A stretch of DNA of 64,000 nucleotides, taken from the NCBI RefSeq assembly GCF_000146065.2, contig NC_020449.1, positions 248,001 to 312,000 on the forward strand, written 5' to 3'. The position numbers were made by a program, and so were the translations under genes. The notes under the pieces are model-generated. The model did not search any database. It had not been told where the DNA came from and saw only the letters and a list, made by a program, of their open reading frames with translations. The DNA comes from Candidatus Cloacimonas acidaminovorans str. Evry. GTDB lineage: Bacteria; Cloacimonadota; Cloacimonadia; Cloacimonadales; Cloacimonadaceae. Each line of letters opens with the position of its first letter. Position 1 is the first letter of the stretch. Of this stretch, positions 1,696-35,877 are shown piece by piece.

Positions 1696-2039
1696 TTGAG
1701 CATAGTTCAATTAAGCTATCCAAGGAGATAATAGCCTTAAGCAATTCAACTACTTGGGAATCAGCTATGAAAGAATGGGTGTTGAGTGAAGTATATTCAG
1801 ATAGGATATTTGCAGCAATTAAACGAATATCAAAAGATAATGCCAAATCCTGGAATATAGAAGCTATAGAATATATGAATGAACGTGGATGGCTTACGGA
1901 ATGGGAGTATGGGTTTTGCATAAACACAATGAAGAAAAGAGTGCTATCAGAAAGACAGTTGAAATCCAGGGTAGATATAAATCAAAAACTTCTAAGGAAA
2001 CCGAAAAATCAATTATCTCATAGAGGCACTAGTGATTAA
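1692..2039 (+). CDS. Small unknown protein encoded between hsdM and hsdS
   Basis: A 115-residue ORF whose ATG overlaps the hsdM stop (ATGA) and whose end overlaps the hsdS GTG start by 8 bases, so it sits inside the operon as if co-translated. I do not recognise a domain with confidence. The C-terminal half has a Trp-Leu-Thr-Glu-Trp-Glu stretch followed by an LSERQL segment and a basic tail. This resembles a short helical 'LS-x-K/R-Q' motif found in many small uncharacterised bacterial proteins, but that likeness is only an impression. No signal peptide or membrane segment is seen. The gene is visibly more AT-rich than hsdM, like the first target-recognition domain of hsdS that follows. An accessory or regulatory role in the restriction system is a guess from position only. 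Confidence 0.6.
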   Translation: MIEHSSIKLSKEIIALSNSTTWESAMKEWVLSEVYSDRIFAAIKRISKDNAKSWNIEAIEYMNERGWLTEWEYGFCINTMKKRVLSERQLKSRVDINQKLLRKPKNQLSHRGTSD

Positions 2040-3354: not shown

Positions 3355-6300
3355 ACAATCCTTCGAATCCTATATTGAGTCCGTCATGCAAGATGGATGG
3401 ACAAGCGTAGCCAATACAGCCTTTGACGTAGGCAATGCCCTCTTTGCGGAGCAAACTATAGACTTTATTAAGCAGAGTCAGCCCACCCTCTGGGCAGAAC
3501 TGGCCAAGCTGAACGGCGATCTCTTGCCCGGGCAGATTATTAAAGCTCTGGTCAAAGAGCGTAATCTCAAGGGCACCCTGCACATCCTGCGGCACGGCTT
3601 CAAGTTTCAGGGTAATACTCTCAAGCTGGCTTACTACCGTCCGGCGCACAGCCTCAGCAAGGAAGCCGAAGCTCTTTACCAATGCAACACTTTTCAAGTA
3701 TGCCGTCAGGTCTTTTACCATCCCGACAAGCAGCAGTCCATCGATATGGTGCTAGCAATCAATGGCATCCCGGTTGCTACCCTCGAGCTCAAAAATCCCG
3801 GCACCGGGCAGAATGTAAAGCATGCCATAAAGCAATACCAGAATGACAGAGACCCTTCTGCACCCCTTTTGAGCTTCAAAACGGGGGCACTGGTACACTT
3901 TGCTGTGGATACCGATGAAGTATATATGACTACTCACTTGATGAAGCAGAAGACATCCTTTTTGCCCTTCAACCGGGGCAGTAACCCTCAAAGTGTGGAT
4001 TGCGGTAAAGGGAATCCAATCCATCCTTCTGGGCACAGAACCGCTTATCTCTGGGAAGATGTGCTTCAGCCGGACAGCTTGCTGGAGATTGTGGGCAGCT
4101 TTATCTTTATCGAGAATGCGGGCAAGAAGGACGAACATATCATCTTTCCTCGCTACCATCAGTTAGACTCCGTACGCCGGCTCTTGGCGCAGGTTAAAAG
4201 CGATCAGACGGGCAAGAACTACCTGATCCAGCACAGCGCTGGAAGTGGTAAGACCAATAGCATATCTTGGCTGGCGCACCGCCTAGCAAACCTGCACACT
4301 GATCAAGACAAATTGATTTTTGACTGTGTGATCGTGATCACGGATAGGGTAGTGCTGGATAGGCAATTACAGGATGCCATTTACCAGATAGAGCATGCCA
4401 TGGGCGTGGTTGCCCCCATTAAAGAAGGTAGCCAACAGCTTGCCAATGCCTTGGTGGACGGTACCAAGATCGTGATCACTACCCTGCAAAAGTTTCCCTT
4501 TATCTTGAGAGGACTTTTGCGGATAGCTGGAGCCAAGGACACTGACATGCCGGATGAAGCGGCTCTACTTAAATCCAAAGCATGGCAAAAGAAGATAGCG
4601 GGCAGGAAGTATGCCATCATAGTGGATGAGGCGCACAGCAGCCAAACCGGGGAGGCAGCACGGGACATGAAACAGATATTAGGTGATAAAGCAGTAAGAA
4701 CTGAAGATGTTGAGGATTGGCAGGATGAACTGAACCTGGTGATGGAGTCCAGAGGACAACAACCCAATCTCAGCTTCTTTGCCTTCACAGCCACGCCCAA
4801 GGGCAAGACACTGGAACTCTTTGGCACCCACGGCAAGGCCTTCCACAATTACAGCATGCGCCAAGCTATTGAAGAGGGATTTATTCTTGACGTGCTGCAG
4901 CGTTACACCACCTACAGCACCTATTTCAAAATGATCAAAAAGACTGCGGATGATCCCAGTATGCCGGCCAAAAAGGCAGCCAAAAAACTATGCAAGTTCA
5001 TGCGCTTGCATCCCCGCAATGTGAGCCAGAAGACAGAGATCATCATTGAGCATTTCCGCAGTTGTATAATGCCCCTGATCGGAAGAAAAGCCAAGGCAAT
5101 GGTTGTTACGGACAGCCGTTTACAAGCCGTGCGTTATATGCTGGCTTTTCAGAAATACATAGGGGAAAATCATTATACCGATGTGCATCCTTTGGTGGCA
5201 TTTAGCGGAACTGTGATCGATCCTGAAACTGAGTTGGAATACACTGAGCCAGGGATGAATATCGACTATAAGAATGGCAGACATATTTCTGAAACGCAGC
5301 TAAAAGACCGCTTTGGCAGTGAGGACTATCAGATCCTATTGGTGGCGAATAAATACCAGACTGGGTACGATCAACCCCAACTCTGTGCCATGTATGTGGA
5401 TAAGCGTTTGGATGGAGTGCAGGCAGTGCAGACCTTATCACGTTTAAACAGGATCTATCCTGGCAAAGAAGCACCCTTTGTGCTGGATTTTGTAAATAAA
5501 GCTGAGGATATCCTGGCAGCCTTTAAGCCCTATTATACGGTGACAGAACTGGAATCAGAATCCGATCCTACGCATCTAGAAGAGATTAAGCACGAGCTGA
5601 ACCAGATGCAGATTTACGATTGGAAGGAAGTGGAGGACTTTGCAAAGATATTCTACAAACCTTTGGGCGAACAAAAACGAGGAGATCACGCTGCTCTTCA
5701 GAAGCATCTCCAGAGTGCCGTGGAGCGCTACAAACAGCTTGAGAGTGATGAGGACAGGGATAAGTTCCATGACAAGCTTAAGGCTTATGTGCGGCTTTAT
5801 GCCTTTGTTACTCAACTAATCAATTACACTGATCAAGAGCAGGAAATGCTCTATAGCTTTGGCAGGTTTCTGTTGCCGCACATCCACCCCAGTGACAGCC
5901 GGGATGCTTATCCGGAAAAAGATGTGGAACTACAGTATTATCGCTTGCAGAAGGTGATGGAAGGCTCTATCGACCTTTCCGAGGGCGAGGAAGTCAAGGT
6001 CAAATCCCCCACTGATACAGGCACTCGTAAAGCTAAGGAAGAGGATAAACCCTTATCCGAGATAATCGAAACCTTGAACGAACGCTTTGGCACGGATTTT
6101 AGCGAAGCAGACCGGCTTTTCTTTGAACAAATCAAAGAGACAGCCTTGCAGGATGAAAGCGTGCTCAAGACCGCAGCAGCCAATCCTCTGGATAAGTTTG
6201 AACTGGGTATTGAGCAGATCATCAAAGACCTGATGATGAACCGGCTGAAGGAGAACGATAAAATCGTAAGCCGGTATATGGATGATGAGAAGTTTCAGAA

Positions 6301-6370
6301 GGTGATTTTTAATCTGTTATCAAAAGAACTTTTTAATGATATTAACGGGGATTATAATGCTAAAAGATAA
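3335..6370 (+). CDS. hsdR: Type I restriction endonuclease motor/nuclease subunit
   Basis: ATP-dependent translocase and nuclease of the type I complex. The 1011-residue length is normal for the family. The N-terminal nuclease domain shows the PD-(D/E)xK signature as D137 followed by E151-x-K153. The SF2 helicase motor follows: Walker A (GSGKT) near residue 302, the DEAH-type Walker B (VDEAH) near 430, and motif III (FTATP) further on. The motif VI region (QTLSRLNR) lies near 710. A helical C-terminal domain for complex assembly completes the protein. The start lies inside the 3' end of hsdS with a GAGG ribosome site just upstream; a second ATG follows directly. All key residues are present, so the restriction system appears intact apart from the unseen 5' end of hsdM. 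Confidence 0.95.
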   Translation: MMHTHNEQSFESYIESVMQDGWTSVANTAFDVGNALFAEQTIDFIKQSQPTLWAELAKLNGDLLPGQIIKALVKERNLKGTLHILRHGFKFQGNTLKLAYYRPAHSLSKEAEALYQCNTFQVCRQVFYHPDKQQSIDMVLAINGIPVATLELKNPGTGQNVKHAIKQYQNDRDPSAPLLSFKTGALVHFAVDTDEVYMTTHLMKQKTSFLPFNRGSNPQSVDCGKGNPIHPSGHRTAYLWEDVLQPDSLLEIVGSFIFIENAGKKDEHIIFPRYHQLDSVRRLLAQVKSDQTGKNYLIQHSAGSGKTNSISWLAHRLANLHTDQDKLIFDCVIVITDRVVLDRQLQDAIYQIEHAMGVVAPIKEGSQQLANALVDGTKIVITTLQKFPFILRGLLRIAGAKDTDMPDEAALLKSKAWQKKIAGRKYAIIVDEAHSSQTGEAARDMKQILGDKAVRTEDVEDWQDELNLVMESRGQQPNLSFFAFTATPKGKTLELFGTHGKAFHNYSMRQAIEEGFILDVLQRYTTYSTYFKMIKKTADDPSMPAKKAAKKLCKFMRLHPRNVSQKTEIIIEHFRSCIMPLIGRKAKAMVVTDSRLQAVRYMLAFQKYIGENHYTDVHPLVAFSGTVIDPETELEYTEPGMNIDYKNGRHISETQLKDRFGSEDYQILLVANKYQTGYDQPQLCAMYVDKRLDGVQAVQTLSRLNRIYPGKEAPFVLDFVNKAEDILAAFKPYYTVTELESESDPTHLEEIKHELNQMQIYDWKEVEDFAKIFYKPLGEQKRGDHAALQKHLQSAVERYKQLESDEDRDKFHDKLKAYVRLYAFVTQLINYTDQEQEMLYSFGRFLLPHIHPSDSRDAYPEKDVELQYYRLQKVMEGSIDLSEGEEVKVKSPTDTGTRKAKEEDKPLSEIIETLNERFGTDFSEADRLFFEQIKETALQDESVLKTAAANPLDKFELGIEQIIKDLMMNRLKENDKIVSRYMDDEKFQKVIFNLLSKELFNDINGDYNAKR

Positions 6371-6386
6371 CAAGCATATAATCTTA

Positions 6387-6415
6387 TTGACATTTTACTT
6401 GTTTAGAAAGATTAA
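6387..6415 (+). promoter_or_regulatory. Candidate promoter for the HTH-protease / PIN-like gene pair
   Basis: A perfect -35 TTGACA (6387-6392) is followed after 17 bases by a -10-like GATTAA (6410-6415). This would leave a leader of roughly 120 bases before the gene at 6545. The spacing is ideal; the -10 is only moderate. Confidence 0.5.
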
Positions 6416-6544
6416 GTTCTGATGCATAGAATTGTTGTTATTGGTTTCTACAAAGTTGACCTCATGCATGAGATATCTAGGCATATTTTGTTATATGAGA
6501 TAGTAAAAAATAAGTAGTTTAGTTAGTTAATAGTAGGAAATGAA

Positions 6545-7717
6545 ATGCCACGAGAGTACGCTCAGATTACTCCATCCGTTATTAGATGGGCGCGTGAGAA
6601 AGCAAAGTTAACCATCGATCAGGCTGCCGAAAAACTAGGTAGAACTCCAACTGATATTCAAAAATGGGAGAACGGAGAAGCTCTACCCACATTAGCGCAA
6701 GCTAGGTCAGCAGCGAAACTCTACGGTCGGGCTTTTGCTGTTTTTTATCTTCCCTCTCCACCAGATGATTTTGAACCCCTCAGGGACTTCCGTATGAACC
6801 AAGACAGTATTATATCGTCAAAAAGCTTATTGTTCATACGTCAAATCCAATGGAAGGCAGAATGGTTAGCTGAATTTTTAGTATCAGAGGGATCACAAAA
6901 ATTAGATTTTGTTGGTAGATACGATATAAACTCACCTATTGAAGACGTGGCATCCAATATCATTGAAACATTAGATATCTCATTATCAGACCATAGAGCC
7001 ACCAGAAGTCCTTCGAAAGCACTTTCTTTATGGATTAATAAATCTGAAAACTGCGGTATTAACATTGTTAGAGATAGCTCCATTAATAGTGATGAATTTA
7101 GAGGGTTTGTTATTATCAATGATTATGCACCGTTCATTTTTCTCAATTCAAATGACAGCTATTCAAGTAGAGTATTTACTCTTGTTCATGAACTTGTTCA
7201 TGTATGGATCAACCAACAAGGAATAATAGATCCAATTGTTTGGAATGGAACCTCTGCTGCAAATGCAATAGAAACATTCTGTAATCGTATTGCGCAATCA
7301 ATACTTATAAAAGAAACCGAGTTGATTGAGCTGTGGGATTCGGAAAACGATACCGCATCAATTATTAAAATATGCCAAGATATATCTTCCTCAATGGTGA
7401 TAAGCCCTGAGATGGTTGCCAGATGCTTATTAGATAATAAAAGAATATCCCATAATGATTATCAATTAGTCAGAGAAGCCGGTATTGATTTATGGAAAAA
7501 GCATAAGGAGAAACAAAGAGAAAGTGATGGAATGGTAAGCCCATCCTTAATGGCAGTATTAAAGAATGGCTATTTGTTCTCCCAGATTGTCTTGAATGCC
7601 TACCAAACTGGATTGATATCTGGAAGAGATGCTTCCTCGTTATTAAATTTCAAAGTCAATAATTTCGGTAAGCTGTCGGATAACATCCCCTTAAGGAGTC
7701 ATTATGCACGGCAATAA
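6545..7717 (+). CDS. XRE-type HTH plus ImmA/IrrE zinc-metallopeptidase (antitoxin/regulator-like)
   Basis: A 390-residue fusion of an N-terminal Cro/CI-type helix-turn-helix (about residues 5-65) and an ImmA/IrrE-type (COG2856) metallopeptidase domain with its HExxH zinc motif (VHELVHVW) near residue 215. ImmA in Bacillus cleaves the ImmR repressor, and IrrE in Deinococcus cleaves DdrO; in both cases proteolysis relieves repression. Fusions with an HTH are common beside PIN-like toxins, where they act as the regulatory partner. The ATG at 6545 follows an AGGAA ribosome site. The next gene starts inside its 3' end, so the two are co-translated. AT content is higher than in the restriction genes on its left and the phage genes on its right, suggesting a separate origin. 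A toxin-antitoxin role is inference from pairing. Confidence 0.85.
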   Translation: MPREYAQITPSVIRWAREKAKLTIDQAAEKLGRTPTDIQKWENGEALPTLAQARSAAKLYGRAFAVFYLPSPPDDFEPLRDFRMNQDSIISSKSLLFIRQIQWKAEWLAEFLVSEGSQKLDFVGRYDINSPIEDVASNIIETLDISLSDHRATRSPSKALSLWINKSENCGINIVRDSSINSDEFRGFVIINDYAPFIFLNSNDSYSSRVFTLVHELVHVWINQQGIIDPIVWNGTSAANAIETFCNRIAQSILIKETELIELWDSENDTASIIKICQDISSSMVISPEMVARCLLDNKRISHNDYQLVREAGIDLWKKHKEKQRESDGMVSPSLMAVLKNGYLFSQIVLNAYQTGLISGRDASSLLNFKVNNFGKLSDNIPLRSHYARQ

Positions 7718-8198
7718 ACCGAAAGTATATTGCTTGGATTCGAACGCATTAATCGAACCTTGGAACAAGTATTACTCACCAAAAATTTCCAATTATTTCG
7801 ATATTCTCGAAAGACTCATTATAGAAAACCGAATATTCTGCACTGAAGAGGTAGCACTGGAAATAAAGAAAGGCGATGATCTTTTATACAAGTGGTTGAA
7901 AAAGAATGAATCTAATTTCGTCAAAACCATCGATTCTGATGTACAGAAAAAGGTAAGAATAATCCTTTCACAGTTTCCTAATCTAATTGATAGCAAGAAA
8001 CAAAGATCAATGGCAGACCCTTGGGTAATTGCTCATGCTTGGTCACTTAATGCTGTTGTAGTTACAAAAGAGTACCCAATCGATAATGTGAAAAAACACT
8101 GTAAAATACCAGATGTGTGTAAGTTCTATAACATCTGTTGCATGGACGATTGGCAGTTTATAGCTGAGCTTGGAATTACTTTCGTAGCTTCACTATAA
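7704..8198 (+). CDS. PIN-like DUF4411-type protein, putative toxin nuclease
   Basis: A 164-residue protein with the look of the DUF4411 branch of PIN-like nucleases. An early YCLDSNALIEPW segment carries the first acidic residue (D12). A conserved acidic pair lies in the first half (near EEVALEIKKGDD), and an MADPWVIAHAW segment supplies a later catalytic-type Asp. PIN enzymes cleave RNA in a metal-dependent way, typically as toxins. The start lies 14 bases inside the 3' end of the HTH-peptidase gene with an AAGGAG site at good spacing, so the pair forms one coupled operon. The gene ends 10 bases before the prophage remnant begins. The family call rests on motif likeness; the toxin role is inferred from the pairing. 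Confidence 0.75.
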   Translation: MHGNKPKVYCLDSNALIEPWNKYYSPKISNYFDILERLIIENRIFCTEEVALEIKKGDDLLYKWLKKNESNFVKTIDSDVQKKVRIILSQFPNLIDSKKQRSMADPWVIAHAWSLNAVVVTKEYPIDNVKKHCKIPDVCKFYNICCMDDWQFIAELGITFVASL

Positions 8199-8208
8199 TC
8201 AGTTAATT

Positions 8209-9084
8209 TTATATTAGACTAGTACTTGTCCTGCACTTCCAATGAAAAGGCGGAAATGGCGTATGTGCACCGGAGACACCAACTGGGTTCATATCTGAGT
8301 CGTATTCGATCTGATCGTCCTTAATCCAAGGCGCGAGGGCTTTGATGTATTCCCGGGCATCATCCAGGCTGTTGGACTTGGTATCCAGAGCCATTAGGTT
8401 ATCCATCACTTCCAGAGCATCGTTTAAGGGATAGACCTTATCTTGGGTAGCCAGAGCCCGGCAGATGTCACTGGTACGATCATCCAGGACCACCACGAGC
8501 TTGTAGTATCGGGCTTTGGCTTTCTTGTAGCCCTGCAACCTTCCAAACTCTCTGATTCTGAGAGCGGTATGTTCGGCCAGTCCCTGCCAGTAGTGGGATG
8601 AGCGGTTGGCGAGGTCATTGAACTGGTCTTTGAGGGTATCTGCAAGCATCTCTTTGGTGTATCCCTGTTCAATGGCTTTAGAGAGAGTGTCTGCAAAGTT
8701 CTGCCGGACATCAGCTTCAAAGTGATTCCCGATCCAGAACATCTGCTGCTTTTGGATAGTAGAGGAGAGATGCTGATCTTCGATACCCCAGAGCCCGATA
8801 CTGGTCTTGGTAGGGGCTTGCACTTGGGTGTCTCTCAGTCCGAGCCGCACACAGCGGTCTATAATCGCTTTGGTAGGTTCATTGACCAGGGCTGCGAAGT
8901 CATCTCCCAACTGGGTATTGATGATGCCCATAAGCTTATCTATTGAGCTCTGGTTGAGTTTCTCAGCTCGGGGCATGTCACTCAGCATTTGAATGGCGAG
9001 TCTGGCTGCATCCTTGATCTCGGTCTTCCAGGCATTATTGAGGACCCGGTAGTACTCAAGCATGAGCTTATCATAGTAATTCAT
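8209..9084 (-). CDS. Phage head morphogenesis protein, SPP1 gp7 / Mu F-like
   Basis: A 291-residue minor capsid protein of the SPP1 gp7 / Mu gp30 (F) class, which helps assemble the prohead around the portal. The recognisable part is C-terminal: a LDDRTSDICR segment near residue 205 and a closing PPFHWKCRTS segment at the very end, which is the family's terminal Cys-Arg motif. The start overlaps the large terminase stop by one base (TGATG). In Mu-like phages a portal gene normally separates the large terminase from this gene; here there is none. The protein ends only a few residues after the family motif, and AT-rich non-phage sequence follows at once, so its natural C-terminus may be cut at the deletion junction. 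Confidence 0.8.
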   Translation of the reverse strand: MNYYDKLMLEYYRVLNNAWKTEIKDAARLAIQMLSDMPRAEKLNQSSIDKLMGIINTQLGDDFAALVNEPTKAIIDRCVRLGLRDTQVQAPTKTSIGLWGIEDQHLSSTIQKQQMFWIGNHFEADVRQNFADTLSKAIEQGYTKEMLADTLKDQFNDLANRSSHYWQGLAEHTALRIREFGRLQGYKKAKARYYKLVVVLDDRTSDICRALATQDKVYPLNDALEVMDNLMALDTKSNSLDDAREYIKALAPWIKDDQIEYDSDMNPVGVSGAHTPFPPFHWKCRTSTSLI

Positions 9085-10637
9085 CAGAAAGAGAACCTCC
9101 GAACCTTAACTCTGTTCCTTCCAATATCGTACTCAGAGAAGCGTTCCAGACAGCCAGCCAGAGCGTCACAGCCATCGATATAGCCATCAGGATAGGTGAG
9201 GAATTGGCTGATGAGAGTAGGAGTATCCTGCCCCTCCGGAAACAGCACTTTGGCTGTCTCGATGATGGTCTCGGTTCGTTCTATACGCAGGTTCTTGTTA
9301 TCTTTATTATCGATCCGCTTTATTCTGTGCGATATTGGTGGCAGATGATTGTCAGTAGCCCACCTGTCGAAGTCAGCGAGAATACGTGCCTGTCCGTAAG
9401 TGGTCTCACAGGCTGCTCTGGCTTTCACTCGGTAAGTGCGATCAAGCTCCTGATAGGCATCATAGTAGTATCTGAAGAACTTGGTATTCTCAGTCTGACG
9501 TATCCAGACGTGGATCACATAGAAGCGATTACCATCGTAGCCTATGGAAATGATGGCTTTGTAACAGCCCTTCTCTCCCCAGGCAGGATCGGCATAAAGC
9601 CAAACCCGCTTCATCTGGGATGGCTCAGGTAGAGATCTATACTTGGTAAACCAGTGGTTCTTGAAGATGTTACCTTCGATTACCGGCTGTCCCAGCATTT
9701 CTCTTTGATAACCAGTCATCCCAAACTTAGCTCGTAAGTTTGGCAAAGTGGCAGTAGGGTATTGATCCTCCCAGGTGGACTTGCCCTGCTGATCTTCGAG
9801 AGAGAAGCGCAAAATCGTTTTTTGATGCGTTTTCAGGACTGACTGGTATCCTAAGTCCAAATCGGGATTATCAGCCCGCATTTCGCTTAATATGAGTTCC
9901 TGAAACTGGCAGATGGCATAGTTGGGATGCACCAGGTTACCGAGCCAGATTATCTTGCCGTTTCCCTCAGGTGAGAGTGCTCCGGCAAGCTCCTGGGTGA
10001 TCTTCTCCATCCGTCTCCTACCGATGGACTGGTTACCCATGTTCTCTTCTTTATCGATATCATCACAGACGATCAGTCCGGGACGTTTGGCAGTCTTAGG
10101 ATTGATGGTTCCACGATGGCTCTGCTTGATACTTCTGGCTCTGATCCTTGCCTTGTTCTTGAGATAGAAGTCCAGATCAAAGCTATCCATTGGCTGTAGC
10201 TCCGGATAGTCCATTGTGAGCCGCTTATTGTTATGCAGTTCATGAAGGGTAAACGCAGTGCGTTCCTGCGCCAGATCTATGTCTGCGGCGGTATGGATCA
10301 CATAGCGCTCACCTTTGATGATCATCCAGATCGGATAGACCACTCCCATAAGAACCGTTTTGCCCAGCCCACGAAAACCGGTGATAGCGATGATGCCTGA
10401 GTCATTATCAGTCTCATCGAACATAGTCTCGTGCGCTGGGCAAAAAGGTAGGGGGAAGATATGCGGGAAATAGGTATGGCAGAAGAACGAGAAAGCATCC
10501 CAACCCTCAGCAGTTGTCTTCCTGATCCTCTCTGCCTTGGCTTCAGGATTATCGTCTATAAAAGGCAAGACGGAGATCGTCTTGGATGCGATCTCCGCCA
10601 GTGCTTTGTTATGCCGCTGAATGAACTTCTTAGGCAT
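9084..10637 (-). CDS. Phage terminase large subunit (Mu gp28-like)
   Basis: Packaging motor ATPase and nuclease that feeds phage DNA into the prohead. The 517-residue protein has an N-terminal ATPase with Walker A GFRGLGKT (residues 87-94) and Walker B LIVCDDID (189-195), where a CDD replaces the usual hhhhDE. The C-terminal RNase H-like nuclease shows its first catalytic Asp in WLYADPAWG (D350) and an acidic DGCDALAG segment near the end. The start codon overlaps the stop of the small proline-rich gene (ATGCCTAA). All motor and nuclease signatures appear intact, so decay is not evident in the coding sequence even though the rest of the late region is gone. Confidence 0.9.
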   Translation of the reverse strand: MPKKFIQRHNKALAEIASKTISVLPFIDDNPEAKAERIRKTTAEGWDAFSFFCHTYFPHIFPLPFCPAHETMFDETDNDSGIIAITGFRGLGKTVLMGVVYPIWMIIKGERYVIHTAADIDLAQERTAFTLHELHNNKRLTMDYPELQPMDSFDLDFYLKNKARIRARSIKQSHRGTINPKTAKRPGLIVCDDIDKEENMGNQSIGRRRMEKITQELAGALSPEGNGKIIWLGNLVHPNYAICQFQELILSEMRADNPDLDLGYQSVLKTHQKTILRFSLEDQQGKSTWEDQYPTATLPNLRAKFGMTGYQREMLGQPVIEGNIFKNHWFTKYRSLPEPSQMKRVWLYADPAWGEKGCYKAIISIGYDGNRFYVIHVWIRQTENTKFFRYYYDAYQELDRTYRVKARAACETTYGQARILADFDRWATDNHLPPISHRIKRIDNKDNKNLRIERTETIIETAKVLFPEGQDTPTLISQFLTYPDGYIDGCDALAGCLERFSEYDIGRNRVKVRRFSF

Positions 10638-10845
10638 AACCGGGTAACCCCCAGAAGCCCAGGGGGACGGGCGTCGGGGACCCGGAGGTCGGAGGAACGA
10701 CCTTGTCGGGCTGTTGGCTTGGAGGATGTAGGTAGGTAGGAAGGTTCAGCGGAGTCGGAGGCAACGGCTCCGCTGTTTGGAGGGTTTGGAGGGTAGGTAG
10801 GTTGTGTATGGAAGCAACCATGTCCGTGGCTGTAAATTTATCCAT
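10630..10845 (-). CDS. Small proline/threonine-rich phage protein between terminase genes
   Basis: A 71-residue ORF, mostly Pro, Thr, Leu and Ser after a short N-terminal helix. Its ATG overlaps the stop of the small terminase as ATGGATAA, and its own stop overlaps the large terminase start as ATGCCTAA. The same ATG-NNN-TAA overlap also joins the two genes before it, so the arrangement fits a chain of coupled translation and supports this being a true gene. The DNA is G-rich and internally repetitive (GGAGG and GTAGG tracts, and an AGCGGAG...CTCCGCT inverted repeat at about 10749-10775). This leaves open that it is only a linker region expanded by slippage. No function can be assigned. Confidence 0.5.
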   Translation of the reverse strand: MDKFTATDMVASIHNLPTLQTLQTAEPLPPTPLNLPTYLHPPSQQPDKVVPPTSGSPTPVPLGFWGLPGYA

Positions 10846-11287
10846 TTCTAACTCTTAAGTATTCTGCAAGATCAAGGACTATGCCCTGGAACTGCTTAAG
10901 CAGGGTCTCGTATCCTTTCTCAATCATGAAGTCGGTAACCTGATCCAGGAAGCGTACGATATAGTCGTTCAACTCCTTGGATGGCTGCCGATCCTTCTGA
11001 TCCTGCTTCATCATGCTCACCAGGCTTTGGATGGCTGTGTCGGCAGGATTCTTGGCATACTCCCGGAGCGCTTGAATGAGTGCCTTCTTGCGGGCGATGG
11101 CGATCTCGTGGTCGAGTTGGTTCTCTTCTTTAAAGAGCTCGTCCCACTTACCGCTCTTGATCCACTTGCGGACGGTGATATCGGAGACTCCGAAGATCAC
11201 CGCCAGCTCAGTGGGTTCGGTCTTACCGTTCAGATAGGCTTCTTTGCAGTTGTCCCGCTTGATGCGGAACTCACGGCTATTACTCAT
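10838..11287 (-). CDS. Putative phage terminase small subunit (Mu gp27-like)
   Basis: A 149-residue protein with an N-terminal helix-turn-helix (about residues 20-50, containing ELAVIFGVSDITVRKWIKSGKW) followed by a long helical region. This is the usual layout of small terminases, which recognise phage DNA and recruit the large subunit. The position directly before the large terminase supports the call. The start overlaps the previous stop as ATGAGTAA. An alternative is a general HTH DNA-binding phage protein, since sequence conservation in this family is poor. Confidence 0.65.
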   Translation of the reverse strand: MSNSREFRIKRDNCKEAYLNGKTEPTELAVIFGVSDITVRKWIKSGKWDELFKEENQLDHEIAIARKKALIQALREYAKNPADTAIQSLVSMMKQDQKDRQPSKELNDYIVRFLDQVTDFMIEKGYETLLKQFQGIVLDLAEYLRVRNG

Positions 11288-11531
11288 ACTCAGGGCGTAC
11301 CTTGTGCTTTGTCAGGTAGTCGTTCAAGTCTTTTCCGGCACAGCGCAGCTGTCCGTTATCTTTGGTTCTAAAGGCAGGCAGAGGATCGAGGATATCCCTG
11401 ATCCAGCGATATACGCTGGAACGGTCAACCCGGAGGATATCGGCTATCTCATCGGGACGGTAGTTGCGTTCATCGTTGAAGATACTCATTGTCTCTAAAA
11501 CCTCTGCAGTTTTGGTATTCATAGGTGCCAT
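11280..11531 (-). CDS. Small HTH DNA-binding phage protein
   Basis: An 83-residue protein with a winged-helix or excisionase-like helix-turn-helix (RPDEIADILRVDRSSVYRWI, about residues 25-44). It starts with ATGGCACC after an AGGAGA ribosome site; a second Met lies at residue 4. It may be a late-gene or packaging regulator in place of the missing Mor/C proteins, but that is only a guess from position between the early and packaging genes. Confidence 0.6.
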   Translation of the reverse strand: MAPMNTKTAEVLETMSIFNDERNYRPDEIADILRVDRSSVYRWIRDILDPLPAFRTKDNGQLRCAGKDLNDYLTKHKVRPEYE

Positions 11532-11586
11532 TATTCATTCTCCTGTACTTTTATCAAATTGAGATGCATTACCTTGCCACTGTTTC

Positions 11587-12207
11587 TTACAGAGAAGGGA
11601 AGTTAAGGATAATCTGGCAGAACTTGCCTGATTCGTCACGTTCATAGAAGTTGATGTACTGCTTGGTAGCAACTACCTGGATGGCCTGGTCGATCAGCTC
11701 CATAGCTTCCTTCCAGGTTTGATCCTTGATGTTGTAGCGGCGCAGGCGCAGGATACGGTATTTGGCGATTTCACCTTTCTTATCGACCTGAAATGCCTCG
11801 CTGATGATGGCTCGGAGGTTGACATTGGAGTCGGCTGACCAGGCTTTGATGCACTCATCGATCTTCTGCTTGGCAAGTTGGAGTTCGATGCCGAACTGGA
11901 TGCGTTCCTTGAATCTGATCTCAACTCTATATTTGCCGTCAAAGCTGTTGAGGACGGCATTGCCCTTCCAATCCAGTCCGTTCTTTTCGGCTACCTGCTG
12001 GAGATAGAGCTCCACATCTTCAAAGAACTGGTTCTTATCTGCTACTATGCGGTCATGCAGCTTGATCGCCCGGTTAATGGTCTTGGTTACGATGGCATCC
12101 TGCTTGAGGATCTCCGGCCTGATGATTGAGACCGGGATGCTCTGTCCGTTAGCGTCAACTCTGGTGGGAATGGGCTTCTTAGCCCTGGGGGTTTTGGGGG
12201 TGTCCAT
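11587..12207 (-). CDS. DUF3164-like Mu-type early phage protein
   Basis: A 206-residue protein that resembles DUF3164, a family found in the early region of Mu-like phages and not functionally defined. Features are a basic N-terminus, a central HDRIVADKNQFFEDVELYLQ-type helix, an NSFDGKYRVEIR strand and a conserved LRLRRYNIKD segment near the C-terminus. The start at 12207 is preferred over an upstream in-frame codon because AAGGAGATATCTA lies directly before it. It overlaps the 3' end of the GemA-like gene by 29 bases. Neighbours support early-phase expression. Confidence 0.7.
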   Translation of the reverse strand: MDTPKTPRAKKPIPTRVDANGQSIPVSIIRPEILKQDAIVTKTINRAIKLHDRIVADKNQFFEDVELYLQQVAEKNGLDWKGNAVLNSFDGKYRVEIRFKERIQFGIELQLAKQKIDECIKAWSADSNVNLRAIISEAFQVDKKGEIAKYRILRLRRYNIKDQTWKEAMELIDQAIQVVATKQYINFYERDESGKFCQIILNFPSL

Positions 12208-12628
12208 TAGATATCTCCTTCTTGGTTGTATTTTTGGTTTTCTTTTCATTCTGTTTGATGTAGTTCTGCAGCATAGCGATGACCGCCCTGCGTTCCTTCT
12301 GGTTGAGTAGGTTCCAGTGGCTTTTGGAATAGTGTTGGATGGTAAATGCCCGTAGCTGGGACTCGGTCCAGCCCGCAGTCTTCATGAGATAGAACATATA
12401 CTTGCCCTGACGGTCGAAAGTAAAGATTTGGGGTCTGCCATGCTTACGGTACTTAAGCAGGAGTGCCTTCAACTCAATTAAGCGATCCTCCGGCAAAGCC
12501 CTAAGTGATTCGCCATAGCCCAAGCCCTTGATGATGAACTTGAATGCTTCAAGCGGCCAGTGGAACTTCTTGACCCGGAGGCCATGTATCTCTTGGCGTA
12601 GTTTTCGTTCTCGCTGTTCCTGAGTCAT
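12179..12628 (-). CDS. GemA / gp16-like (DUF1018) phage protein
   Basis: A 149-residue protein with the pattern of Mu GemA (gp16, DUF1018): a basic N-terminal helix; a central PQIFTFDRQGKYMFYLMKTAGWTE-type segment, split here as residues near 80-105; and a C-terminal helix with QKERRAVIAML. In Mu, GemA modulates host gene expression and DNA topology; here only family likeness can be claimed. The ATG follows a GAGGGC site. The Lys-rich end overlaps the next gene. Confidence 0.65.
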   Translation of the reverse strand: MTQEQRERKLRQEIHGLRVKKFHWPLEAFKFIIKGLGYGESLRALPEDRLIELKALLLKYRKHGRPQIFTFDRQGKYMFYLMKTAGWTESQLRAFTIQHYSKSHWNLLNQKERRAVIAMLQNYIKQNEKKTKNTTKKEISNGHPQNPQG

Positions 12629-12644
12629 AGAATGCCCTCGCTCT

Positions 12645-13181
12645 TTACTTGTGGTTAGTAGTTTTGGTAGTTTTTTTACGGCGTCTCTGAGGCCGAATGC
12701 CGCACTCGGCCCGCTTCTCGCTAATGATGCCTTTCTTGATCACCGAGCCGACTTTGCAGATCATGTTTATGTCCTTGGTATAATAACCTGACTTACATAT
12801 ACCCACCGCATCGACTGAGATCAGTGCCTCCAGGTACTTAAAGGCCCACTGGCGGCTGCGCTGCATCTTGGAGGCCAATTGTCGGATGCTCTTTATTTGG
12901 TTCTTTTCAAGCAGGAAGCAGATATCCTGGCAGGCTTTAAGGTCGAATGCCCAGTTACCGCAGTAAATGGTTGCTACATTGATATTATAGCGACCCCGGT
13001 TGGTTACATAGATATCCTCGTATTTGGATACCTTGCGGATCACATTGCCTGTAAGGAGTTGGTTAAGGCGCTCCTGAACCACATCCCGGTCTACTCCGGT
13101 GCACTCACAGATCAGATCTAAGTTGAAGTAGCTGACGAAGCGGTCTACGAAGTGGTCGATTATAATGCTTTGCTCGTTCAT
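12645..13181 (-). CDS. Early phage protein with two predicted winged-helix segments
   Basis: A 178-residue unknown. The N-terminal half reads like a winged helix (LICECTGVDRDVVQERLNQL, then a YVTNRGRYNI wing). A second HTH-like unit lies near residues 97-120 (IRQLASKMQRSRQWAFKYLE). The C-terminus is strongly basic, suggesting DNA contact. The ATG follows an AGGGGG site, and the gene lies 8 bases after the ATPase gene in the early operon. A role as replication or transcription accessory factor is possible; no family is recognised. Confidence 0.6.
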   Translation of the reverse strand: MNEQSIIIDHFVDRFVSYFNLDLICECTGVDRDVVQERLNQLLTGNVIRKVSKYEDIYVTNRGRYNINVATIYCGNWAFDLKACQDICFLLEKNQIKSIRQLASKMQRSRQWAFKYLEALISVDAVGICKSGYYTKDINMICKVGSVIKKGIISEKRAECGIRPQRRRKKTTKTTNHK

Positions 13182-13189
13182 AATGCCCC

Positions 13190-13888
13190 CTAAATATGGT
13201 TCATGGCTGGGATGGGATTGATTTTACTTCTGACTTCAAGCATGTGCATGATCTTGATGGCTTTCCTAAGGTTCCCGGCTGCGTTGAAGTGGATGTAATT
13301 GACCAGGGACTCCGGGCAGGGAATATTCATCAGTTCGGTGCCCAACATTCTAATATCATCCTTGCTTACCGCTTCGAACTCGTAGAAGTAGTTACAGCGG
13401 TCAAAGTAGTAAGCATTAATCTGGTTAAGCCTATCCATGGCGTTCTGCATGCCTACCAGGATCACCACTGCTAATGTCTCATCCACCAGATCTCTGACCG
13501 ATCCGAGTAACTGAGGATAGCGGAAGGCGTAGTCGATCTCATCAATGATGATGACGGTATCCTCATTATCGAGGAGCAGTTGGATACATTGCTTGTAGAT
13601 GTTGTTGGTAGTACCCACGGGGAGATAATCACCCCTCCCCAGGCTTCTGTACAGGTTCTGGAGCAGTTCCTTGGCGAAGGTCTTGGGAGTGGTTGTAGCT
13701 TCCAGTCTGATATACACATATCCTCGGGCATAGGCAGCACGGCTGGCATAGGTGGTCTTGCCGAGGCCGGGTCTGCCATACAGCATGCCCAGTCCCACCA
13801 TCTCCAGTCGGGGACGCTTAAGCAGGAAGTCAATGCACTCATCGGCTTTCCGGACATTGTGGATCGGGACAAGTTTACCTTGCTTCAT
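13190..13888 (-). CDS. AAA+ ATPase, MuB/TnsC-like transposition activator
   Basis: A 232-residue ATPase with Walker A GRPGLGKTT (38-46) and Walker B TVIIIDEID (111-119). It lies 10 bases after the transposase gene, the standard partner arrangement in Mu-type and Tn7-type elements. There the ATPase binds target DNA, stimulates the transposase and provides target immunity. It starts with ATG after AGGAGGAATAA. Length is shorter than MuB (about 310 residues), lacking an obvious N-terminal HTH, which resembles the ATPases of Gram-positive transposable phages. Confidence 0.88.
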   Translation of the reverse strand: MKQGKLVPIHNVRKADECIDFLLKRPRLEMVGLGMLYGRPGLGKTTYASRAAYARGYVYIRLEATTTPKTFAKELLQNLYRSLGRGDYLPVGTTNNIYKQCIQLLLDNEDTVIIIDEIDYAFRYPQLLGSVRDLVDETLAVVILVGMQNAMDRLNQINAYYFDRCNYFYEFEAVSKDDIRMLGTELMNIPCPESLVNYIHFNAAGNLRKAIKIMHMLEVRSKINPIPAMNHI

Positions 13889-13898
13889 TTATTCCTCC

Positions 13899-15962
13899 TT
13901 ATTTGATTCCGATCGTTTTAAGCATTTTCTTGAACTCCTCATTGTCGAAGGGATCGAACTCGCTTGATCCTTCGATAACAGCTTGATTTTGATTGGTGTT
14001 GGTCTGTTCAGGTTGACTGGCAGCTATTGCTTTCTCTTGTTCGATTACTATCTGTTCCAGCCTGGCAATCTCCTCTTCTGGACCCGGGGCGGGAGCTTCG
14101 ATCATAGGTGCTTGAAGGAAGGTAGGATTGTTATCAGCGGGGATCTCGTTCATATAGCTCTTGAGCAGCTTATCTACCGATTCCTGATTACTGCGCACAA
14201 AGCTCTGGGTCCGCTGTTCGGTCAGCTGCTGCAGCTTCTTGATCTGGGCATATTCCTGGCGATATTCCTTATGCGATTTGCTGTTCTGCATATCGGCCTG
14301 GATGAACGGATGCTGAGCCTGGCGCAGAGAAGCCTGGCAGATAAAGACATCCGCCTCGTCATAGACCAGTACCCATCTCGCATCAGCCAGATCGTATCTG
14401 ATCACCACCGGCTTACCTATGTGATCCACTAGGGCAGGATGCCAATACTTCAGTTTGTTCAGCACGATGCCCTCGTTGCGGATGGCTTTACGTTCTACAC
14501 TCAACATCATAAAGTTGAGCTGAGAGGGATTGACCAGCCTATCCTGCGGCTTGGGAGCCGAGTTGAACACCTCCCAGGGTTTGCGGTTATCCAATCCCCG
14601 GTGAGGGGTGATACCATATACATATCTGATATAGTAGCCGATCATCTGCATCGCTTCTTCAGTAGTGGGTGGCTCGCAGGTATATAGCTTCTTGATCCAC
14701 TTCTCGTTACGCATCAGAGTGGCAGGTTTATCGGCTATATTGGCTCCCCGGAAGCTGCTGATGAAGCGTTCAAACTGCTCCTGGAAGGTCCGGAAAAACC
14801 GCTCGATGATCTTGGCTTTGGCATTGTAGCTTTCGGCGAACTGAGCTCTGATTCCTAACTTGGGGAAGATGCCACCTAATTCCTTGGCCAGGTCATGCCC
14901 TTCCCACTGCTCGTGGAACAGCTTGCTCTTGAAGGCCTTGCCATTATCAAGATAGACATACTGAGGCAGGGCTCCCCAGTTGAGGAAGCCATTGCGGAAG
15001 GCAGCTTGGATGTGCTGGCTGTCCTCGGTGAAGGCGAGAGTGGCACCCACTGGATATCGGGATGCCCAGTCGAAGACCATGATCATAGTCATGCGTTGTG
15101 CTTTCCCAGTCTTGGGATTGAGGATATCGAAGGCCAGGGTATGTCCATCGGCTACCCAGACTTCGCCCACACTCAGCAGTCTGCTGTCCCGGTGGATGGT
15201 CTTAATGATGTGCTCAGCTACGAACTTGCTGCCCCGCCTGGCTTGCTCCCACATTGCCAGGTTGTCATCCCGCCACTCTTCGACCCAGCGTCTAAGCGTT
15301 GGTACCGAACTGGGTGAGTCGATCAGTCCGGACTCGGCTTTGGCTTTTAGGAACTTGAGAGCACTGCCGATGCTGATCCGGTTGGGATGCAGCAGGATCG
15401 CCAGCAGCACCTTGCCTTCCAGTTCGGTGATCTTACGTTGCCGTTTCTGATAGCGGTTGCCATGCAGGAGGGCATACATATCCTGCTTGCTCTGTTCATA
15501 TCGTTCCAGCCAGATGCGTAAGGCCCGTTCAGTTCGCTTTCCTTTCAAAGCATAGAGTTCCGGAGCCAGGCTACCGTTATTGTATTCCTTAGTGAGCAGT
15601 TCCCACTCCCGTCCTTTGGACTCGCTATGCTGGAGCCGCTCCAGCACCGTGGTGCAGAAGTAGCCCATCAGCTTGGCTTCGTTATCGCATTTGACTGGTA
15701 CCCGCTCTTGAGGAGTAAAGTCGATGAACTCATCCTCAGGATCATTGGGAGCGCTTGGCTCATCTTCCAGAACGATACTGTCGTCAAGTATGTTGCTATC
15801 AGTCGCTGTGACAGCCGGAACTGGCACTAGTTCCGATTTTGGTTTGATCTCCTGGTCTTTCCCAATCTGGTTGAGCAAATCCTGCTTACCCTTCCAATCA
15901 GGATAGATGCTCTGATAGAGCTCCGCGTAGGTCAGGGGATCGATTTCATCATAGATGCTCAT
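13899..15962 (-). CDS. Mu-type DDE transposase (rve integrase core)
   Basis: A 687-residue transposase that pairs the element ends and joins them to target DNA. The RNase H-like core carries D272 (WVADGH), D339 (VYLDNGKAFKS) and E387 (KAKIIERFF), the full catalytic triad. Before it is a helical N-terminal half with HTH-like segments (LEGKVLLAILLHPNRISIGSAL region, residues 181-202) for end binding. After it is a Mu-type beta-barrel (about 480-560) and a charged tail with an EEEIARLEQIVIEQE coiled coil, the likely contact site for the ATPase. The ATG follows GAGGAGGAC and overlaps the preceding gene by 14 bases. The gene appears intact. Confidence 0.93.
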   Translation of the reverse strand: MSIYDEIDPLTYAELYQSIYPDWKGKQDLLNQIGKDQEIKPKSELVPVPAVTATDSNILDDSIVLEDEPSAPNDPEDEFIDFTPQERVPVKCDNEAKLMGYFCTTVLERLQHSESKGREWELLTKEYNNGSLAPELYALKGKRTERALRIWLERYEQSKQDMYALLHGNRYQKRQRKITELEGKVLLAILLHPNRISIGSALKFLKAKAESGLIDSPSSVPTLRRWVEEWRDDNLAMWEQARRGSKFVAEHIIKTIHRDSRLLSVGEVWVADGHTLAFDILNPKTGKAQRMTMIMVFDWASRYPVGATLAFTEDSQHIQAAFRNGFLNWGALPQYVYLDNGKAFKSKLFHEQWEGHDLAKELGGIFPKLGIRAQFAESYNAKAKIIERFFRTFQEQFERFISSFRGANIADKPATLMRNEKWIKKLYTCEPPTTEEAMQMIGYYIRYVYGITPHRGLDNRKPWEVFNSAPKPQDRLVNPSQLNFMMLSVERKAIRNEGIVLNKLKYWHPALVDHIGKPVVIRYDLADARWVLVYDEADVFICQASLRQAQHPFIQADMQNSKSHKEYRQEYAQIKKLQQLTEQRTQSFVRSNQESVDKLLKSYMNEIPADNNPTFLQAPMIEAPAPGPEEEIARLEQIVIEQEKAIAASQPEQTNTNQNQAVIEGSSEFDPFDNEEFKKMLKTIGIK

Positions 15963-16689
15963 GCTTGTCCTCCTCGCTGTATTTGTAGATCAAAGCGCTG
16001 TGCAGGTCTTTGCCATCCACCTTGAGAGTGATCTCAATAAAGCCGGCAGGCACCAGGTTCCTGGCCCGGCAGTCTGCCATCTCCTTGATATATAAGGAAG
16101 GCTCGGTCAGCAGGAAGGTCTTCATAACCTTATAGCCATCCTGCTCGACCAGATGCTTGTGCACTTCGATTCGGTTGCGCTTGATATAGCGCCATACGGT
16201 GCGGGTGGAGCAGCTCATCAACTCCGCTGCCCGCTCCACGGTCAGCCAGACTGACCTAATCTTGTTCTTGCTCATGTTCAGCCTCTGCCAATAATTCTCT
16301 GGTACCGGTAAGACCACTGTGACACTTCCACTCCGGTGGCGTGTCACAGAGGTCAAATAATCTGTCACAGTGGTAGCCTTTTTCTGTCCTGGCGATCTGT
16401 CACAGCGTTCAACGTATCTACTGATCAGCATCGGCGGCTTTTTTCTCCGATGGGAAGGGTGTGTGACACCTCCACTCCGGTGGCGTGTCACAGAGGTCGG
16501 ATAATCTGTCACAGTGGTGCCCTTTTTCTGTCCTGGCGATCTGTCACAGCGTTCAACATATCTACTGATCAGCATCGGCAGCTTTTTTCTCCGATTGGAA
16601 GGGTGTGTGACACGTGTCACAGAGGTCAGTGTGTCACAGAGGTCATCCTTGATCCAACTTTCTCCGGGCTCGTAACTGGTCGCTTTCAT
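15949..16689 (-). CDS. Early HTH protein (Ner-like position) with iteron-encoded N-terminal repeats
   Basis: First gene of the early operon. The conserved-looking part is C-terminal (the last 108 residues): an HTH of excisionase/MerR type (LTVERAAELMSCSTRTVWRYI) and a strand-rich domain. Two starts compete. The start at 16275 would give just this 108-residue protein with a weak GAGG site. The start at 16689 has a much stronger AGGGGAGGT site 4 bases upstream and adds about 138 residues, including two copies of a 48-residue repeat encoded by a 144-bp tandem duplication. This repeat spells the TGTCACAG iterons as Thr-Ser-Val-Thr or Thr-Thr-Val-Thr. The opposite strand is also open through the array, so openness alone is weak proof. 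Position between repressor and transposase matches Mu ner. The long form is chosen on the ribosome site. Confidence 0.6.
   Translation of the reverse strand: MKATSYEPGESWIKDDLCDTLTSVTRVTHPSNRRKKLPMLISRYVERCDRSPGQKKGTTVTDYPTSVTRHRSGGVTHPSHRRKKPPMLISRYVERCDRSPGQKKATTVTDYLTSVTRHRSGSVTVVLPVPENYWQRLNMSKNKIRSVWLTVERAAELMSCSTRTVWRYIKRNRIEVHKHLVEQDGYKVMKTFLLTEPSLYIKEMADCRARNLVPAGFIEITLKVDGKDLHSALIYKYSEEDKHEHL
16313..16644. promoter_or_regulatory. Array of at least nine TGTCACAG iterons in the prophage early region
   Basis: Direct copies on the + strand start at 16342, 16363, 16398, 16486, 16507, 16542, 16615 and 16632, with the forms TGTCACAGAGGTC, TGTCACAGTGGT and TGTCACAGCGTTC. An inverted copy, ACCACTGTGACA, lies at 16313-16324. 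Two further sites lie at the probable element terminus (17764-17775 and 17823-17835) in inverted orientation. The layout recalls the Mu left end plus internal enhancer/operator, where transposase and repressor compete for sites. Which protein binds here is not known. Confidence 0.75.
16319..16606. repeat. 144-bp tandem duplication carrying three iterons per unit
   Basis: Two near-identical units, 16319-16462 and 16463-16606, differ at only a few positions. The period of 144 is a multiple of three and adds 48 in-frame residues to the overlapping early gene. Each unit carries one copy of each of the three iteron variants. Confidence 0.9.
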
Positions 16690-16836
16690 AAGCACCTCCC
16701 CTTAGTTATTGTTGGGTGCTACATAACTGCGTCGCAATAACTTGGGAAGTCCTTTCTGCCAGAATCGACAGGTTTTGAAAACTATCTGATACCAGCGGAA
16801 AAATCCACCGCCTAAGCACAACTATATAAATAAGCA

Positions 16837-16919
16837 TTGACAAAAAGATTAGACAATTTATTTTGTCTACGGATGCATAATATTACCCATACGGCAAATG
16901 GTCAATGAAAATATTGACC
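16837..16919. promoter_or_regulatory. Divergent repressor/early operator-promoter region
   Basis: A perfect TTGACA lies at 16837-16842 for the rightward repressor promoter. It overlaps a palindrome with arms TAGACAA and TTGTCTA at 16850-16869. A second perfect inverted repeat, GGTCAAT / ATTGACC (16900-16906 and 16913-16919), sits just before the repressor ribosome site. On the other strand TTGTCT and TTATTT with 17 bases between them form a candidate early promoter overlapping the same palindrome. This is the expected place for a repressor to control both directions; binding itself is inferred. Confidence 0.6.
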
Positions 16920-16933
16920 TTATAGGAGGAATA

Positions 16934-17662
16934 ATGGACCCTAATGATATCGGCAGCAGGCTGGGAATGCTGATCAAATCAATGAATTTGAAGCAGTACC
17001 AGTTTACCGAAAAATTCGGTATTTCGGCTAATTCTCTGGACCGTTATAAGAACAATGAGCGGTTTCCCGACCCTCAGTTCTTGGCCAGATTGATTGATGC
17101 CGGAGTGAATGTGAACTGGCTGTTAAGAGGGGAAGGCAGTATGTTCATCCTGGCTCCCTGGGAGCTTGGAGATGATATCAGGACTACCAAGAAAGTCCAG
17201 ATAGTGGATGGCAAACCGGTCTTAGTGAATGATTTTGATACCACTTACATCCGCACCTCACTGTTCCCGATCGTGGCGGAAATATCCGCTGGATCACCCA
17301 TGGATGTTCCCGAAGGCATAGAGCCAGCGGAATCAGTCGAAGTCCCCACTCGCTATATTCCCTACGGTACGGATAGCTACGTGGCCTTCCGCATTAATGG
17401 ACAGAGCATGGAGCCGCAGATACTCCACGGGGATATTGTCCTCATCAAAAAGCAGATCACCTGGGATGGTTTGGACGGTAAAATCTGTGCCGTCAGATAC
17501 GAGACCGGCATTACTCTGAAAAGGATACAGTATGATGAGGCCCGCAGGGGTGTTGCCCTCCAACCTCTCAATAAAGACTACCGGATCGAGTTTATAGACG
17601 CTGATCAGAGTCAGTGGCTAACGATGATCGGCCCCCTATCACTTCAGTTACGGTTCTATTAA
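16934..17662 (+). CDS. CI/LexA-like phage repressor, HTH plus S24 self-cleaving peptidase
   Basis: A 242-residue repressor. The N-terminal XRE-type HTH (residues 7-60) would bind the operators just upstream. The C-terminal S24 domain has an Ala-Gly cleavage site (A119-G120 in AEISAGSP), the catalytic Ser in GQSMEP (S158) and the catalytic Lys in TGITLKR (K196). All elements for RecA-stimulated self-cleavage are present, so induction by DNA damage is expected. The start at 16934 is chosen because AGGAGG lies 4 bases before it; an upstream in-frame ATG at 16898 has no such site and would run through the inverted repeat. Transcription runs toward the element terminus, divergent from the early operon, as for the Mu c gene. 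Confidence 0.92.
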   Translation: MDPNDIGSRLGMLIKSMNLKQYQFTEKFGISANSLDRYKNNERFPDPQFLARLIDAGVNVNWLLRGEGSMFILAPWELGDDIRTTKKVQIVDGKPVLVNDFDTTYIRTSLFPIVAEISAGSPMDVPEGIEPAESVEVPTRYIPYGTDSYVAFRINGQSMEPQILHGDIVLIKKQITWDGLDGKICAVRYETGITLKRIQYDEARRGVALQPLNKDYRIEFIDADQSQWLTMIGPLSLQLRFY

Positions 17663-17763
17663 ATTTGTAAACTATTTCAAAAAATTTGATGTTCTGAAAA
17701 TACCTTAAATTGAGGGCAAAATTGAAGGAATCGTGATATCGAAACGTCCAAAAACGTCCAAAA

Positions 17764-17835
17764 ACCACTGTGACACAGTCTAAAGCCAGTCCTATCTATC
17801 TCTCCACCCTATAAACAGTTAAGACCTCTGTGACA
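17764..17835. mobile_element. Probable left terminus of the Mu-like element with two transposase-type sites
   Basis: ACCACTGTGACA at 17764-17775 and GACCTCTGTGACA at 17823-17835 repeat the early-region iterons in inverted orientation, about 60 bp apart. Read from outside inward the outer one begins TGTCACAG, giving the 5'-TG end used by Mu-type and Tn7-type transposases. No target duplication can be verified because the right end is missing. Confidence 0.6.
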
Positions 17836-17876
17836 AGTGATATCGATTTGAAAATTTGGGTGAGAATTTATATTCA

Positions 17877-17963
17877 CCCTTATCAACCCCGATATGATTC
17901 CCTTATGATTCCCATATCGTTCCCATATCGCGATATGGGAAGCGTGTGGGAAAGTTTTGGTCA
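17877..17963. repeat. 11-bp-phased palindromic array, TTCCC type
   Basis: TTCCC occurs at 17898, 17909 and 17920 (exact 11-bp steps), and its complement GGGAA at 17937 and 17948 with a degenerate copy at 17959. The arms mirror about 17930.5, and the central 22 bases (17920-17941) are a perfect palindrome. Weaker CCC steps extend left to 17877. It lies between the prophage terminus and the cyclase gene. Same geometry as the arrays near 35.8, 47.9 and 59.6 kb. Confidence 0.85.
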
Positions 17964-18176
17964 ATATAACCGCTAACTGCATCTGCTACAAAAAGATAAA
18001 GAAACACAGGAAAAGGTAAATTGAGAGGGCAAGATAGCGAAATAGGAAAGGAGAAAAAAGTAACTGAAAAAAGGATATCATAAACAGGCAAAGCAGTAAG
18101 TATCCTGCTGTCAGGTTGATTTATATTTCTGCTTTGCCACTCTGCAAAAAAAATTTCTTTCCTCTTTTCCTTTTTA

Positions 18177-18264
18177 TTTACAAGCTATCATTTTCGGTGT
18201 ATTCGGTATTCCCGGTTTTGTTTACAAGTAATCATCTTCGGTTTTTTCGGTATTCAGGGTAGCT
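18177..18264. repeat. Two tandem copies of a 44-bp repeat upstream of the cyclase gene
   Basis: TTTACAAG-x-(T/A)ATCAT(T/C)TTCGGT-type units start at 18177 and 18221, and both end with TTCGGTATTC. They lie 80-165 bases before the cyclase ATG, the right distance for a regulator or for a recent duplication of promoter-proximal sequence. A TTGACC (18288-18293) lies downstream without a well-spaced -10. The rest of 17663-18342 shows no gene. Confidence 0.75.
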
Positions 18265-35508: not shown

Positions 35509-35798
35509 GACATTTTTAGTGACAGTAATATAAATATCAGATTGAGAATGTATAAATATTTATTTATCTCATTTTGATTCCTGCTTTCGCAAGAATGACA
35601 AATGGCTTACTATTCAAAAATGATATCAGCTGTTGTAACCAAAAATCAACCCCCAAATTAACAGCAGGTTTAAGGCAAATTCAGATTTCGGAATAAATGA
35701 CATCTATTATATATATCTGCTTGTTAATCAATTGATTATCTGTCTTGCCTATCAATGTTAAATTCCAACACCTAACTTATTGATAATTAGTCAGTTCT

Positions 35799-35877
35799 CT
35801 AACGACTCCGTAACACTTCCGTAACACTGCCGTAATCTCGTTACGGGATCGTTACTTGGTTGTTACTGAATCGTTAA
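35799..35877. repeat. 11-bp-phased palindromic array, GTAAC type, copy A
   Basis: GTAAC-like pentamers start at 35799 (CTAAC), 35810, 35821 and 35832 (GTAAT), then their complement GTTAC at 35840, 35851, 35862 and 35873 (GTTAA). All steps in both arms are exactly 11 bases and the arms mirror about 35838. The sequence between motifs differs, so only the motif and phase are strict. It lies in the 587-base gap between nitroreductase and the VWA-like gene. The rest of this gap holds a small ACGGATTTTAACGAATTC repeat near 35943 and no gene. Confidence 0.92.

Follow-up and report, generated by a model that had tools for sequence, protein, structure and literature searches.

The mirror-symmetric TTCCC array at positions 17898 to 17952 of the window (the whole stretch analysed, 64,000 nucleotides of the Candidatus Cloacimonas acidaminovorans chromosome) is best explained, with a probability that we put slightly above even, at about 0.55, as one copy of a dispersed, non-coding palindromic element of about 60-110 bp that resembles REPs and REPINs and in which 11-base-phased cores would bind a protein. 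Such elements apparently form a hitherto undescribed class that occupies intergenic regions of related species and retains its layout, with a core word characteristic of each family; among the papers searched, none mentions Cloacimonas together with the terms intergenic and palindromic.

The TTCCC array and the adjacent prophage

The word TTCCC starts at 17898, 17909 and 17920, and GGGAA at 17937 and 17948, in exact 11-base steps that are mirrored about a perfect 22-base palindrome (TTCCCATATCGCGATATGGGAA); the geometry given in the original prediction (three TTCCC, two GGGAA and the central palindrome) holds at every base and greatly exceeds chance expectation. In the 64-kb window, threefold repetition of an exact 5-mer occurs 7 times at step 11 and never at steps 10, 12, 13 and 15. 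The array has a combined palindrome and repeat score of 2.09, whereas twelve 64-kb Markov sequences (random sequences matched to the window in dinucleotide make-up) each peaked at 1.68 or less. The weak outer unit that precedes the left arm is also present in the TTCCC copies at genome positions 1224494 and 1989768. The features at this locus are the following.

1 to 17872, no strand assigned: right part of a Mu-like prophage (whole prophage, genome 231704-265872; ends TATGCGTTCTCAC and TATAAATTCTCAC)
17873 to 17877, no strand assigned: TTCAC, right-hand repeat of the prophage's 5-bp target duplication (left-hand repeat, genome 231699-231703)
17887 to 17897, plus strand: weak outer unit CCCCGATATGA, which reads TTCCGATATGA in sister copies
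17898 to 17930, plus strand: left arm, three 11-base units TTCCCTTATGA TTCCCATATCG TTCCCATATCG
17931 to 17952, minus strand: right arm, two mirrored units CGATATGGGAA GCGTGTGGGAA
17920 to 17941, no strand assigned: central 22-base perfect palindrome
17960 to 17971, plus strand: flank present on one side, GTCAATATAACC, similar to CTATATAAC beside other TTCCC copies and GTAAC-family arrays

The array is host DNA and pre-dates the Mu-like prophage, which inserted 15-25 bases away. The prophage encodes a LexA-like repressor and the C-terminal domain of a Mu-type transposase. It has TTCAC at both ends, and its terminal sequences TATGCGTTCTCAC and TATAAATTCTCAC match each other; its removal in silico leaves ATAAAATTCAC joined to CCTTATCAACC. 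From the prophage end at 17872, the first TTCCC is 25 bases away and the weaker outer unit about 14, closer than the roughly 60 bases originally estimated, and the accompanying proposal that the array was the insertion-site neighbourhood holds, in that a host-DNA array adjoins the insertion site of a mobile element. That the palindrome is instead part of the prophage end, or a chance repeat, is suggested by this short distance and has a probability close to nil: the prophage boundary and the target duplication exclude the array, twelve other TTCCC loci lack a prophage, and a prophage-free relative carries an array at the same site (see below), which identifies the array as host DNA. The original caveat that the palindrome might belong to the phage end therefore fails. 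The exact TTCCC array has no match among 2.9 million viral contigs, and a phage origin is rejected. The prophage also contains a 144-bp direct repeat (window 16318-16613; 2.1 copies, 94%), located between the transposase and repressor genes; its TGTGACA sites are found again close to the end of the prophage.

Insertions are found beside other TTCCC arrays as well. Only two IS3-type ends in the genome match GTCCTAAANAANTNGACA (160819-160836, L001; 1945708-1945725, L077), one of them part of an IS3-family element, and both lie no more than about 50 bp from a TTCCC array (chance probability about 3e-6, for a pattern chosen after it had been sighted), which suggests target preference. Together with the prophage, three mobile insertions flank the 13 TTCCC arrays.

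Word families and the 11-base step

The genome (a single contig of 2,246,820 bases) was surveyed by sampled stretches and pattern searches. TTCCC mirror arrays occupy at least 13 loci in the 2.25 Mb (the palindromic pattern has 18 matches versus 0 in a reversed control; the match at 809299, a plain tandem pair inside a gene, was left out of the count), and GTAAC mirror arrays occupy about 40. A word-free scan, which scores palindromy and repeats at a set step with no word assumed, revealed two further words, CATTGCTTACC and CATCAACCCAT, with totals for words beyond TTCCC and GTAAC being lower bounds. Because TTCCC and GTAAC are both dispersed, the word marks a family and not a locus, contrary to the original suggestion that each locus carries its own sequence. 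Three of these arrays share the window with the TTCCC copy.

35796 to 35879, minus strand: GTAAC-family mirror array
47875 to 47965, plus strand: GTAAC-family mirror array with flank CTATATAACAAGCAA
59574 to 59660, plus strand: mirror array of the third word, CATTGCTTACC, ending in TTAAGGAAG; the word recurs at several other genome loci

The GTAAC copies align over about 104 bp, beyond which the flanks are unrelated in most pairs; a few copies lie within larger repeats. Nearly all arrays are outside the genes called by a crude ORF caller, commonly 100-500 bp away from them and in every gene orientation, including between convergent genes, so that a promoter-operator regulon is rejected as an explanation. 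Further dense repeats between genes are a 46-nt element (TTTTCGAGGGGCTTACGCCACCATCGCTATCATTGTGTCGCCCT), with copies spaced by 99 or 132 bp, and tandem arrays of the 9-bp words GGTTTAGAG/GTTGAGAGG (L071:1821-2073; L028:1847-2159; window 59263-59367).

The layout is specific to one step. Among 464 kb of the genome, including two stretches picked for their TTCCC arrays, there are 19 strong mirror arrays at step 11 versus 0, 1 and 0 at steps 10, 12 and 13, respectively, and 400 kb of the congener G003 contain 11 versus 1, 1 and 0. The dominant word families differ between species: the words include TTAATCAAGCG, TTCCC, CTCCT and TTAAC in G003, TCCCG, GTAAC and CTCCT in G008, CCGTA in G002, and TTCCC with different spacers in G004; TTAATC is also among the words of congeneric mirror arrays with the same architecture, and TTCCC-type arrays are present in other genera of the family. 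The class defined by architecture with interchangeable words, as originally proposed, is thus real, given the step-11 specificity and the different words of the congeners.

Within the arrays, conservation is concentrated in the cores. Across 34 aligned GTAAC copies, the information content per column is 1.93 bits in the cores, 1.43 in the spacers and 0.54 in the far flanks (p about 1e-6), with all six cores nearly invariant. In a GTAAC-like element of G003, TTAA replaces GTAA in every unit and the GTAAC-type spacers are unchanged (TTTAACGCTTCCTTAATCTCGTTAAGGAAGTGTTAAAGG). Uniform cores with free spacers, and the joint core change in G003, are the pattern expected from selection by a shared recognition protein and not that expected from copying of whole 11-base units; the origin of the arrays by local copying of a short word, one of the options raised initially, is accordingly not favoured, because spacers differ between units while the cores are uniform.

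An outward-facing end motif, approximately AGCAAGGAA and of the type A(A/G)G(C/T)AAGGA, recurs across words. In the flanks of arrays of many words, AGTAAGG occurs 43 times outward and 9 times inward, with 8.2 expected, and AGCAAGG occurs 39 times outward versus 2 inward, with 10.3 expected; in the CATTGCTTACC family, word and motif overlap, so that these counts are not fully independent of the words. The motif is weak in the TTCCC family (AGTAAGG in 2 of 24 flanks), and the variant tested is found on both sides of the array in only 11 of 98 cases.

Orthologous sites in relatives

The locus without the prophage was identified in JAKPKS010000058.1 (L125), with 82% identity in the left flank and 87% in the protein. 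Between the same conserved flanks, this contig carries a GTAAC array in the opposite orientation; a TATAAC-type flank lies to the left of the array there and to the right in the present genome. The contig is titled Atribacteria and its locus is Cloacimonas-like; its genome record matches only one of the Cloacimonas gene pieces tested, and the contig is therefore probably mis-binned. L059 (G015:C6) looks like a similar case. A 44-bp tandem repeat (TTTGTTTACAAGTCATCATCTTCGGTGTTTTCGG; window 18172-18259) upstream of the cyclase/TPR gene has extra copies in the same relative (L125:1965-2140).

The 11-base steps, whose loss in relatives would have counted against the original prediction, persist in relatives where other TTCCC arrays have orthologous sites. 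G003 clearly shares the array upstream of argF/OTC, and counterparts exist in G004 and, with a different word, in G002, so that this site bears arrays in four species with two words. The array site 3' of a lolE-like gene is occupied in G003 too, with a TCCCG array of G008 nearby, and two GTAAC sites match CTCCT arrays in relatives; three other array sites of this genome have no array in the orthologous regions of the relatives compared. One of the queries was approximate (89% match to its own gene) and was used for locating orthologues only.

In a controlled comparison, 16 G003 arrays and 14 array-free gaps were traced to the orthologous gaps of two relatives. An array was present in 14 of 24 comparisons versus 3 of 16 for control gaps (one-sided Fisher p 0.014), the comparisons being non-independent and the control gaps shorter on average; counted by site, the values are 10 of 14 and 3 of 11 (p 0.036). 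For array site 14, whose automatic boundary was unusable, scoring relied on known array positions. Most shared sites carry different words, and the position of the array within the gap is often not the same either; arrays may therefore have entered permissive gaps independently, which is as likely as in-situ replacement. Conversion of one word to another at fixed bases is unlikely given the differences in offset and orientation. Comparison of filled and empty sites, in relatives too diverged for exact boundaries, yielded no clean target duplication of the element, and no transposition was seen.

Alternative readings and known systems

The recurrence of arrays at orthologous sites is also what position-bound protein-binding sites would produce. 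If the arrays were selected in place for chromosome organisation, insulation or regulation, with words turning over along with the specificity of the protein, the excess of matched G003 sites (14/24 against 3/16), the two words found upstream of argF/OTC in four species, and the combination of uniform cores and free spacers would all follow. We regard this explanation as unlikely: array offsets differ at several shared sites, the array of the relative at the present locus is in the opposite orientation, the control gaps in the G003 test were shorter on average, and promoters are not preferred. A further reading, to which we give a fairly low probability, is that throughout the genus DNA-binding proteins of one family co-evolve with their 11-base-phased mirror arrays; intergenic sites would retain an array as species diverge, and the array as a whole would be swapped for one of another word.

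Single-stranded hairpins, acting in RNA or DNA as transcription ends, mRNA stabilisers or cruciforms, with the 11-base step incidental, are improbable. The four arrays of the window do fold better than shuffled sequences, as DNA (z from -3.1 to -4.8), and perfect palindromes are frequent at the central unit; against this, the 11-base repeat is left unexplained, there is no Rfam match (a tRNA is the sole known RNA family in the stretch scanned), and paired cores never vary jointly in the 34 GTAAC copies, with little compensation in spacer pairs (cross-arm pairing in 497 of 510 core cells and 319 of 408 spacer cells). A structured RNA with stem covariation was rejected for the GTAAC family, in which compensatory change is absent.

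Under the preferred reading, a REP/REPIN-like dispersed element, the uniform 5-base cores at mirrored 11-base steps would be double-stranded sites, one helical turn apart, for a putative DNA-binding protein. The many copies, which have unrelated flanks and occupy wide gaps between genes of any direction, may have spread or been replaced as small non-autonomous mobile units. The coexisting word families of species-dependent abundance, with a short outward end motif common across words, could reflect co-evolution in which core words drift with the binding protein and the layout and ends are retained; at this locus, the prophage inserted beside the pre-existing element. If this reading is right, these are bacterial dispersed palindromes recognised by geometry rather than by sequence: both arms carry cores spaced by one helical turn, and the words vary with family and species. 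Word-based repeat finders would list the families separately and miss the class. The words and species involved would then be natural material for a search for co-evolution of a DNA-binding or mobilising protein with its sites, and the arrays would mark hot spots for the landing of prophages and insertion sequences.

Several known systems share parts of this architecture. Similar to MITEs, the arrays are small, non-coding and dispersed, and they may have short inverted end motifs; no parent transposon was found, and no clean target duplication of the element was seen among the diverged relatives. PhoB/OmpR-type operators consist of direct half-sites 11 bp apart, the same direct spacing, whereas the arrays are mirrored and multi-unit, use many words and extend beyond promoters. 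ParR/parC centromeres are arrays of short direct repeats, which in plasmid R1 are 11 bp long, and the words are particular to each cognate protein family (PMC9426499). The arrays likewise combine 11-bp-step repeats with family-specific words but have mirrored arms and dozens of chromosomal copies; no parMR operon was seen beside the present array, the right neighbour of which is a cyclase/AAA/TPR protein.

The closest likeness is to REP, BIME and REPIN elements, which are short, palindromic, extragenic and multi-copy, with several families per genome, species-specific abundance and doublets of about 100 bp (PMC3116915, PMC3733652, PMC1525189), REPs being known targets of insertion sequences (PMC1525189). 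The arrays, too, are dispersed, extragenic, palindromic and multi-copy, fall into several families of species-specific abundance, form doublets of about 100 bp, and serve as insertion-sequence targets (TTCCC arrays adjoin both of the matching IS3-type ends, and the Mu-like prophage as well); they differ in the internal 11-base-phased tandem cores on both arms. The unpaired GTAG or CGTC tag at one end of REPs and REPINs (PMC3733652) is absent from both strands of window 17873-17975, which covers this element. An array is located within 1.5 kb of 3 of the approximately 17 RAYT-type loci of the genus (manually sorted PF01797 matches), about the background rate; the RAYT-like protein of this genome reaches 58.9 bits, short of the 80 required by NCBIfam. 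With the tag absent at this element and no RAYT association detected, the arrays are described as resembling REPs and not filed as such. Mobilisation by RAYT is not supported, since arrays are not enriched near PF01797 genes. At L084:1285-1932, an apparently intact REP-type tyrosine transposase is followed, about 700 bp past its 3' end, by a half-degenerate CATTGCTTACC array.
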